Origin: Caulobacteraceae bacterium
GTDB taxonomy: Bacteria > Pseudomonadota > Alphaproteobacteria > Caulobacterales > Caulobacteraceae
Direction of reading: 5' to 3'
NCBI GenBank assembly: GCA_025352085.1
Contig: JANXUA010000141.1
Span: 1 to 43,256 of the forward strand
Length of the DNA stretch: 43,256 nt
Made by a program: the position numbers and the translations under genes. Numbering within the stretch: the stretch's first letter is position 1; every line of letters begins with the position of its first letter. Positions 16,437 to 18,243 of the stretch are shown here, piece after piece. Below the pieces are notes generated by a model. The model worked only from the letters and a program-made list of their open reading frames with translations. It ran no database searches and was not told where the DNA came from.

Positions 16437-17474
16437 TCAGGAACCCGGCCAGTAGCCGACGATCTTGCGGGTTTCCGCCAGGATCGGCGCCGCGATCGCG
16501 CGCGCGCGCTCGCTGCCGTCGGCGAGAATGCGATCGATCTCGGCCGGATCGGCCATCAGCCGGCGCATGTTTTGCGTCACCGGGGCCAGGGTCTCGACCA
16601 TCAGATCGGCGAGGGCCGGTTTGAACGCGCCAAAGCCCTGACCGCCGCGGGTTTCCAGCACCCGCGCCTTGGTCTGGCCCGACAGGGCCGCAAAGAGACC
16701 GACCAGGTTATCCGCCTCGGGGCGATCCTTTAGACCCTCGACTGTTTCGGGCAGCGGCGCGGGATCGGTTTTGGCGCGGCGGATCTTGCCGGCGATGGCG
16801 TCGGCGTCGTCGGTGAGGTTGATCCGCGACTGGTCCGACGGGTCGGACTTGGACATTTTGGCCAGGCCGTCGCGCAGAGACATCACCCGCGCGCCCGGCC
16901 CCTCGATCAGGGGTTCGGTAAGGGGGAAGAAGCCCGGTGCGCCAAAGTCATGATTGAACTTGGCGGCGATGTCGCGGGTCAACTCCAGATGCTGTTTCTG
17001 GTCCTCGCCGACCGGCACGTGCGTGGCTTTGTAGAGCAGGATGTCGGCCGCCTGCAGCACCGGATAGGTGTAGAGGCCGACGCTGGCGCGCTCCTTGTGC
17101 TTGCCGCTTTTTTCCTTGAACTGGGTCATCCGGTCGAGCCAGCCGAGGCGGGCGACGCAGTTGAGAATCCACGCCAGATCGGCGTGTTCGCGCACTGCGG
17201 ACTGGGGAAAGATGATCGCTTTTTTCGGATCCACCCCGGCGGCGACATAGGCCGCCGCGATCTCGCGCGTCTGAGCGGCCAGGGCGGCGGGGTCTTGCCA
17301 AGCGGTGATGGCGTGCAGATCGACGACGCAGAACAAACATTCCATCTGGTCCTGCAAGGCGACGAACTTCACCAGAGCGCCCAGATAATTGCCAAGGTGA
17401 AGCGCGCCGGAGGGCTGAACGCCGGAAAATACGCGCGGCGGACCCGCGTAGGGTGAGGGGGGGTGGTCAGTCAT
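16437..17474 (-). CDS. trpS: Tryptophanyl-tRNA synthetase
   Basis: Class I synthetase charging tRNA-Trp. The HIGH-like motif is in [16 protein letters not shown] (near residue 20) and the KMSKS loop is in [11 protein letters not shown]. The Trp-specific segment [15 protein letters not shown] is present. The length of 345 residues is normal. The ATG at 17474 starts directly at the family N-terminus. It is the first gene of the eleven-gene minus-strand run; the 490 bases upstream are unusual (see the repeat array and dyads). Confidence 0.96.
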
Positions 17475-17650
17475 GGCTTTGGCTTTTCAAAAACGGGATC
17501 ACATGTCCAGCGCGCACAACGCGCCGGCGGTTCAAAGGGCGTCGGTCGCGACGCGCCATCGACGCCATGAGGTCCGTTCAAAAGCCATGGCGGCGATGTA
17601 CAGGCACGCGTCGGCGCCGTCCAGCGTCAGCCGCAAAGCCTCGCGCTCCG
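17475..17650. other. Intergenic DNA upstream of trpS, no gene recognised
   Basis: This is the first part of a 492-base gene-free interval between trpS and the dodecin gene. On the minus strand about 40 codons read without a stop up to a TGA near 17535-17537 (for example LRLTLDGADACLYIAAMAFE), but there is no good start. It may be a decayed coding fragment. Nothing else is visible before the repeat array. Confidence 0.35.
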
Positions 17651-17736
17651 GGCGGTCGGCGGGCGGTCAAATGGCGGTGTTTTGGCGGTTTTTGGCGGTC
17701 GGATGGCGGTCAATTGGCGGCTTATGGCGGTCGTGC
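17651..17736 (+). repeat. Eight-copy array of 10-11-base units GGCGGTCnnnT
   Basis: GGCGG begins at 17651, 17662, 17673, 17684, 17694, 17705, 17716 and 17726. The steps are 11, 11, 11, 10, 11, 11 and 10 bases, averaging close to one helical turn. In seven of eight units the next base is T; units 1, 2, 5, 6 and 8 read GGCGGTC. The other bases vary (GGCG, AAAT, GTTTT, TTTT, GGAT, AATT). The boxes therefore lie on one face of the DNA. The array is 177 bases upstream of the trpS start and directly precedes an AT-rich island. Its role is unknown: protein-binding array, centromere- or iteron-like element, or decayed microsatellite. Confidence 0.8.
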
Positions 17737-17744
17737 AGCGCGGG

Positions 17745-17907
17745 AGATATTCCATATCATATTGATATTTCATAATATTAATTCAAAGCTCAATCGAAAC
17801 GGTCGTTTCGCGCCCGCCTCTGCGGGTCCTCGGACCGATTGGTCCGGCGATAAGTTGCATATTGCAACAAATTTCAACCGGTTTCAAGCCGCGCGGAAGC
17901 GCGCGGC
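17745..17907. other. AT-rich island followed by a cluster of perfect dyads
   Basis: Bases 17745-17789 are about four-fifths A/T, against strongly GC-rich surroundings. Five perfect inverted repeats lie in or after it: ATATCA-TAT-TGATAT (17754-17768), CGAAAC-GGTC-GTTTCG (17795-17810), CGGACC-GATT-GGTCCG (17831-17846), GTTGCA-TAT-TGCAAC (17854-17868) and GCCGCGC-n6-GCGCGGC (17888-17907). The first and fourth share the same TAT centre. No DnaA box (TTATnCACA) was seen. It lies upstream of trpS and downstream of the dodecin stop. Confidence 0.7.
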
Positions 17908-17966
17908 GGCGAGCGTTGCCGCCCCGCTTGTTTCGCCGCGCCGGCGGCGGAAGAACCGTGCGTCGG

Positions 17967-18173
17967 CTATTTTTCGTACTTGAAACTGACCCGCAGGCGG
18001 CTGCGATAGTGCTCGATCTGGCCTTTGGGCCCGAGGGTTATATCCAGCTCGACCACCTCGGCGACGCGCAGGTCGCGCAGGGATTTGGCGGCCGTAGCCA
18101 GGGCCTCGGCCGAGGCCGCCTCCCAGCTGGTCTTGCTCGTGCCGATGATTTCGGTGACGCGATAGACGCTCAT
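17967..18173 (-). CDS. Dodecin (flavin-storage protein)
   Basis: This 68-residue protein has the dodecin pattern: VYRVTEIIGTSKTSWEAASAEALATAAKSLRDLRVAEVVELDI and a closing strand HYRSRLRVSFKYE. The Trp in TSWEAA is the residue that stacks on the flavin in characterised dodecins. Twelve copies form a hollow shell that binds riboflavin or FMN in the cytosol. The ATG at 18173 has AGGGAGA about 5 bases before it. The gene is alone on its strand, between the structured interval and the ParE remnant. Confidence 0.93.
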   Translation of the reverse strand: MSVYRVTEIIGTSKTSWEAASAEALATAAKSLRDLRVAEVVELDITLGPKGQIEHYRSRLRVSFKYEK

Positions 18174-18243
18174 GGGTTTCTCCCTTTTTCCGTGTTTCCC
18201 GGATTCAGGAATAGGGCGCCCTAAACTGACCCCGCGTCAAGAC

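Follow-up and report, generated by a model that had tools for sequence, protein, structure and literature searches.

A stretch of 43,256 nucleotides from a Caulobacteraceae bacterium (called the window below; it is C152 of genome G000, which comprises 3.0 Mb in 187 contigs) carries an array of eight GGCGG boxes in helical phase between trpS and a dodecin gene. The features of this locus, in the order in which they are met on the minus strand, are as follows:

17967-18173, minus strand: dodecin gene, upstream of the element (Pfam Dodecin, E 3.7e-21)
17859-17887, minus strand: putative promoter of presumed activity (TTGAAA 17887-17882, 17-bp spacer, CAATAT 17864-17859)
17855-17867, minus strand: palindrome TTGCAATATGCAA (as read on the minus strand), an operator-like promoter core and one of seven exact sites in G000
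17788-17854, minus strand: leader, with no terS recognised (partly by inspection)
17747-17787, minus strand: AT-rich stretch directly before the array (base composition)
17651-17736, plus strand: phased array of eight GGCGG boxes (box counts and steps, TRF, simulations)
16437-17474, minus strand: trpS, the next gene downstream, with 176 bp from its start codon to the array

The boxes start at 17651, 17662, 17673, 17684, 17694, 17705, 17716 and 17726, giving steps of 11, 11, 11, 10, 11, 11 and 10 with a mean of 10.71. This is the longest chain of any 5-mer at 10- or 11-base steps in the window, and when the array is removed the maximum falls to 3. First-order Markov simulations of the window likewise reached chains of at most 3, both for GGCGG (200 simulations, against 8 in the real sequence) and for any 5-mer (30 simulations), and TRF detects the array with a score of up to 118. 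The first-pass annotation had described these eight boxes with their 10- to 11-base steps, and both the description and the limits 17651-17736 are confirmed for the boxes themselves, while the unit probably extends beyond them to about 17887. On the minus strand, which is that of the putative promoter and of trpS, the boxes read CCGCC. The −10-like CAATAT sits inside the palindrome, with the −35-like TTGAAA upstream of it, and AT content is 64% over the 70 bp that precede the array, in a window that is 34% AT as a whole. Neither a terS gene nor a remnant of one was recognised in the leader. A short imperfect inverted repeat, CGGACCGATTGGTCCG (17831-17846), lies between the palindrome and the AT-rich stretch and possibly forms a leader hairpin. 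A short peptide from the AT-rich stretch was weighed by eye and dropped.

The first-pass annotation had also named absence of the array in close relatives as a result that would refute its reading, and at this locus that result was obtained. No GGCGG array was found at trpS in 11 other genomes of the genus (in four, the window orientation alone was covered), G002 offering only 182 bases upstream in this comparison. A gene end resembling the window glnD (by eye) lies 84 to 171 bp from trpS in 6 of the 11 genomes, and G003 carries an orphan terS with a GCGGCC array at trpS instead. Conserved regulation of trpS was rejected because no such array was found at this gene in the relatives, an absence explained by the array belonging to a dispersed element.

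A dispersed element with gene-bearing and gene-less copies

The genome search proposed in the first-pass annotation retrieved further arrays with similar phasing in G000, with CCGCC/GGCGG boxes on C23, C35, C65, C143, C156 and C164. With a strict pattern, the array family is present in 4 of the 16 genomes of one Caulobacteraceae genus, and a second strict pattern found the same four among 149 genomes of the family. The loci are patchy and non-orthologous between genomes, the array length varies, and no recurrent target gene was seen among the inspected neighbours across genomes. Loose GGCGG matches inside genes, L074 (G000:C74) and L134 (G002:C112), are excluded from the counts. A regulon operator acting on fixed targets was rejected since the inspected neighbouring genes differ between genomes. 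Plasmid origin was also rejected: positions 17400-18200 match only the dodecin genes of two Caballeronia plasmids in the plasmid collection. Nor is the pattern that of a plasmid centromere or iteron, as several arrays occur in one genome, beside trpS, ABC-F, acyl-CoA dehydrogenase and other genes (by eye). From the first-pass reading, the selected protein-binding boxes are retained, being phased and not a young microsatellite, and the suggested ties to centromeres, iterons or trpS give way to a dispersed element.

On the CCGCC strand, the element is composed of a promoter with the TTGCAnnnTGCAA palindrome, an AT-rich stretch and the phased array, and in full copies an open reading frame for an orphan TerS-like protein lies between the promoter with its palindrome and the array. 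The unit measures about 0.24 to 0.7 kb, and the fitted arrays contain 4 to 16 boxes, or 12 to 21 in a class with the array inside the coding sequence. Among 20 arrays examined, 4 follow a TerS gene (L069, L072, L089 and L128) and 16 are gene-less, and the gene-less copies have ends in common with the gene-bearing ones, as in MITEs. Palindrome and array stand together in both full copies of G000 and in 11 of the 16 gene-less copies, where at least 9 of the 10 palindrome letters are found within 300 bp upstream, at 104 to 191 bp (seven perfect). A score of 9/10 was reached in 1.6% of 800 shuffles and 10/10 in none. The score of 9 is not reached upstream of the other five gene-less arrays (L071, L084, L085, L088 and L130), to which the array at C143 of G000 belongs. 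In the 11 palindrome copies, a suitably spaced hexamer that agrees with the −35 in 4 or more of its 6 letters points toward the array in 7 and away from it in 4, and three more copies (L086, L087 and L132) show by eye TTGACA/T with a spacing of 16 bp. Averaged over the 16 gene-less copies, AT content in the 70 bp preceding the array is 55.5%, with only 30 to 47% in L085, L086, L129 and L132.

The exact palindrome occurs seven times in G000, on C23, C35, C43, C65, C152 (the window), C156 and C164. All seven sites are in elements and none was found outside them in this genome; the C43 element has a weak array with three boxes in chain. The reversed control pattern of the palindrome has one site in G000.

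The right-hand boundary of the element is revealed by two copies in G023, on C81 and C22, which match at 92.6% over 699 columns. Between the start codon and the last box they are near-identical, and immediately beyond that box they diverge, indicating that the array ends where the element ends on its right-hand side. Similarity is distinctly lower upstream of the start codon, where the −35 and the palindrome halves are kept, and no target duplication was recognised by eye in this pair, the left side of which is blurred. In L222 (G002:C24), a TerS-like open reading frame behind the palindrome has an internal deletion that fuses MPILENPRHEAFAQA to GEASENPTLVNAARLAILDAS, and this copy is perhaps an intermediate toward the gene-less form. 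Putative toxin-antitoxin genes (by eye) adjoin three elements, resembling BrnT/BrnA, HigB and RelE/HigA (L071 252-882, L073 4198-4476 and L128 2344-2960).

The palindrome also precedes other genes of the genus, namely phage terS, terL and portal genes and the gene of an XRE-family regulator, where the G000 copy reads TTGCGTATTGCAA. This regulator is present in 13 of the 16 genus genomes. Twelve of these have a single match and G023 has two adjacent ones, which count as two of the 14 loci, and 13 of 14 loci have a located gene and a palindrome of 9 to 10 letters out of 10 within about 350 bp upstream (L276-L287 and L289; in G000, C9:15598-15897). The XRE-family regulator is a candidate for binding the palindrome and regulating the element. 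The Caulobacter GTA repressor RogA was rejected for this role, as the repeat GGAA-N4-TTCC given for it in the cited part of the literature is different (PMC9632790). Among 40 of the palindrome regions listed, 7 reach a chain score of 4 or more, with boxes of other types, and the other 33 stay below it. Proteins resembling one multicopy orphan family (by eye) also begin near the TTGCAnnnTGCAA promoter, as in L208 (MSAAE...LEELSDIGMEIAR...AFARISKAIRLTI); their loci are L208, L210, L211, L212, L216, L219 and L220 in G020, L224 and L226 in G002, and L233, L234 and L238 in G011, and the L208 copy has no match in Pfam or PHROGs.

Orphan and phage-type TerS proteins

The protein of the full copies has 116 to 250 amino acids and typically starts with MPxLxNPRxEAFAQARA. 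A profile of 15 proteins (A2) retrieved a single match in the PDB, the small terminase of Pam5 (21di), with an E value of 3.3e-18 over positions 1 to 84. For three proteins the best PHROGs matches were to the terminase small subunit (7e-8 to 3e-7); with Pfam Terminase_2, two of the three matched under its cutoff and the third had no match. A protein search of the phage collection gave 17 matching records, nearly all over the HTH part only. By sequence homology, the orphan protein is assigned to the phage small terminase family. The AF2 monomer model has predicted helices at 7-17, 22-28, 37-43, 45-81 and 86-119 and a mean pLDDT of 87, with helix 37-43 as the third helix of the predicted HTH; the top Foldseek matches of the model are Sf6, NV1, PaP3 and SPP1-like TerS, all of them short of significance (E 0.94 or worse).

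The family comprises 43 matches in 12 of the 16 genus genomes, and at E 1e-12 it extends to 15 of 199 family genomes, three of them outside the genus. Relatives retrieved by protein search, at 12 loci, are from Caulobacteraceae (11, uncultured or bacterium) and one Proteobacteria bacterium. The TerS family itself is already known; no description of an orphan terS with such arrays was found in titles and abstract openings of the open-licence literature.

Thirty of the 43 matches were tested for arrays (23 orphan and 7 phage-type; of the 13 left out, 9 are partial or at contig ends), and a phased array accompanies 21 of the 23 orphans and none of the 7 phage-type proteins. In a fixed-window test, z exceeded 3 in 17 of the 23 orphans and ranged from −1.1 to 1.3 in all 7 phage-type cases; the remaining orphan arrays came from refits starting at the stop codon, which were chosen after that test. 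The chosen-window fits, mostly from the stop codon, were equalled by 0 of 100 shuffles in 20 of 20 orphans. This was also true of the stop-codon fit at G005:C25, with nine GCGGCC boxes. The same fit gave no array at G023:C202 and G023:C293 (56 and 13 of 100 shuffles as good), nor at the four other matches outside the set of 30, G003:C152, G010:C178 (two genes) and G011:C104. The pair at G010:C178 (L147 and L156) consists of two divergent TerS-like genes on one palindrome promoter, neither with an array. Around the phage-type TerS genes no array was seen on either side: out of 100 shuffles, 6 to 96 did as well on the 3' side and 7 to 97 on the 5' side. As a control for the fit, 80 regions 3' of other genes were used; in 5 of them no shuffle out of 60 did as well, and judging by coordinates three of these 5 contain a real array or a piece of one. 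The array scores of the orphans (18.3 to 71.3) lie above the control 95th percentile of 15.4.

The two groups also differ in gene context and in the C terminus. Six of the 7 phage-type genes have TerL adjacent (in L173 on the basis of Pfam and PHROGs), with no large terminase found after G023:C251b, and no large terminase was seen beside the orphans. The C-terminal motif [TSP]xx[EDA]W[LMVI], defined post hoc from phage-type sequences already inspected, is present in 7 of 7 phage-type proteins and in 0 of 23 orphans; that it serves in docking is a guess.

These data bear on the possibility that the array is a minimal, pac-like packaging signal, with the orphan TerS and the TerL of a prophage or GTA packaging the flanking chromosome, so that the element would be a tiny satellite. 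Homology to TerS is in line with this, as is the palindrome promoter shared with phage terS, terL and portal genes of the same genus, and in the parts of the literature cited the pac sites of P22 and SPP1 are placed within or at the start of terS (PMC9611059, PMC4737164). The missing C-terminal motif and the missing neighbouring TerL nevertheless argue against packaging, and so does the confinement of exact palindromes in G000 to elements. Moreover, 13 TerS relatives on viral contigs have no phased array, with chains of at most 3, and together with the 7 array-less phage-type genes they led to the rejection of the idea that real phages use phased arrays as their pac sites. A packaging role is considered unlikely.

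Boxes and the DNA-recognition region

The box differs between classes of the orphan protein that are defined by residues around the HTH recognition helix, as follows:

GHGH[AS]SRL, NGHSSRV and AQRHASRL: ACCGCC (nCCGCC in G002:C114)
PDRSHACRL: GCGGCC
PDRGHACRL: GCTGCC
L[NA]KGH[PS]SRL: CCTGCC
HGHRHGARM: CGCGCC
GQGHASRL: loose nACGCC/nnCGCC
SSVAHACRL: CTTGCC, four boxes
RHRGHPSRL: loose nnCGCC, AGCGCC or nGCGCC, array in coding sequence

Proteins of one class have like boxes across different genomes, and classes with differing boxes coexist within single genomes (G003, G020, G011 and G023). The protein of G005:C25 (PDRAHACRL), which lies outside all Mantel sets, fits GCGGCC as do two PDRSHACRL proteins. 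Four TerS have the array in the coding sequence, with a loose box; in the RHRGHPSRL class (L152, L166, L167 and L168) the phased repeat lies largely within the coding C terminus of the TerS-like gene.

In Mantel comparisons, where orthologous pairs were dropped from the reduced sets and shared descent is lessened but not removed, distances at residues 31 to 43 correlate with box distances with r of 0.38 (p 0.0017, n 19), 0.30 (p 0.012, n 15) and 0.37 (p 0.0057, n 13); a first run on the set of 19 gave p 0.0004. The corresponding r values are 0.07, 0.08 and 0.16 for residues 44 to 110 (p 0.22, 0.27 and 0.12), and 0.32 in the full set and 0.20 and 0.15 in the reduced sets for residues 1 to 30 (p 0.006, 0.073 and 0.18). 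Among windows of 10 residues, 31-40 gives the highest r in each of the three sets. The box therefore tracks residues 31 to 43, around the recognition helix, and not residues 44 to 110.

Boxes are also conserved where spacers change. The TerS-linked arrays of G008:C32 and G011:C233 precede the same gene and are orthologous, and in their alignment 1 box column out of 55 differs, against 18 spacer columns out of 57 (Fisher p 1.9e-5; box positions were taken from only one sequence of the pair, and the count covers this one array). The alignment of another orthologous pair, G020:C99 with G011:C269, was left out of the column count. The drift of spacers around a kept box, proposed as a check in the first-pass annotation, is seen in this array, and the whole unit does not drift alike as in a simple tandem repeat.

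An 11-bp unit that spread through slippage and copying, without any protein bound to it, would account for the patchy, non-orthologous loci in each genome and for the variable array lengths. This reading does not predict that boxes are kept while spacers change, nor that the box follows the protein class across genomes, and the mixed 10- and 11-base steps maintain the helical phase, unlike simple slippage; such neutral expansion is quite improbable. An operator or insulator acting on trpS or another neighbour through an unrelated host protein has somewhat poorer prospects still. The next gene is co-directional at 11 of 16 array loci, as well as at L129, L130 and L132, and the window array lies 176 bp before trpS, but the downstream gene is convergent at 5 of the 16 loci, no target recurs among the inspected neighbours and no such array was found at trpS in the relatives. 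An RNA element, in which the transcribed C-rich repeat acts as a Rho-loading (rut) site or leader sequence, suits the fixed orientation after a promoter-like stretch and the CCGCC reading in that sense, but is very improbable given that other classes have GCGGCC or GCTGCC boxes, which are not C-rich and G-poor, and that the boxes covary with the DNA-recognition region.

A proposed multivalent binding site and its relation to known systems

The window array is best explained, with reasonable though not high confidence, as the cis component of a dispersed element with two parts, serving as a multivalent binding site of the orphan TerS-like protein. In full copies the element consists of a promoter with its −10 inside the TTGCAnnnTGCAA palindrome, the orphan TerS-like HTH gene, the AT-rich stretch and the array of boxes at 10- to 11-bp steps. 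At every helical turn the protein would contact one box of its own class. The outward HTH domains of a presumed ring would probably meet the boxes on one face of DNA wrapped around it. The window copy, which may have arisen by gene loss, is gene-less, retains promoter and array, and has the same box class as the elements of C35 and C156 in G000, so that the TerS-like proteins of these two loci would bind it in trans. They are now the candidates for the binding protein, which the first-pass annotation had left unnamed. Control of the element may be exerted through the palindrome, and binding may have some effect on trpS. The element could serve the cell, stop read-through from itself into neighbours, or only maintain itself.

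A more specific version, tentative and rather less probable than the binding site as such, is that of a small terminase cut off from packaging, with the phased array wrapping its ring in a nucleosome-like manner, a readable code linking residues 31 to 43 with the three bases that vary in the nnnGCC box, and gene-less copies bound in trans. In the parts of the literature cited, most phage TerS rings have nine subunits, within a known range of octamers to dodecamers (PMC9611059), and the TerS DNA-binding domains studied so far are described as binding weakly or without clear sequence specificity (PMC4737164, PMC9611059), which counts against the proposed binding site. Wrapping versus threading in DNA recognition by small terminases is called a major debate (PMC11331095), and a nucleosome-like TerS model is described as unable to explain specificity (PMC9611059). 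The 21 natural protein-array pairs with differing boxes are ready material on how ring proteins recognise DNA. They belong to a lineage-restricted chromosomal element made from phage packaging parts, with a promoter palindrome in common with phage genes.

The element shares properties with several known systems. MITEs and REP-type repeats are dispersed and lineage-restricted and occur in gene-bearing and gene-less copies, which the element resembles also in the common ends of its copies, whereas its terminal part is a phased direct-repeat array, and no transposase, terminal inverted repeats or target duplication were recognised in it. Plasmid centromeres such as parC of R1 carry helically phased direct repeats with a unit of about 11 bp, and like iterons they resemble the element in having such repeats beside the gene of a DNA-binding protein. 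The element differs in its several chromosomal copies and its candidate binder of TerS type, and no partition or replication gene was recognised among its inspected neighbours. Phage-inducible chromosomal islands redirect packaging with their own TerS, and in both cases a chromosomal TerS is found apart from a phage genome; the element is a unit of only about 0.24 to 0.7 kb, with no integrase, replication or capsid-interference genes among its immediate neighbours (by eye).

A further relation is to phage TerS with pac or cos sites (SPP1/SF6, P22, HK97 and Pam5), where the protein is of the same family as the orphan (Pam5 TerS, PDB 21di) and the terS gene likewise lies next to the presumed recognition site. 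The pac region of SPP1, as described in the part of the source cited, contains direct repeats like the element (PMC4737164). In contrast to these systems, the orphan elements have no TerL seen alongside and no C-terminal motif, and while the phage-type TerS tested are without an array, the elements combine many chromosomal copies, phased cognate boxes and gene-less copies.
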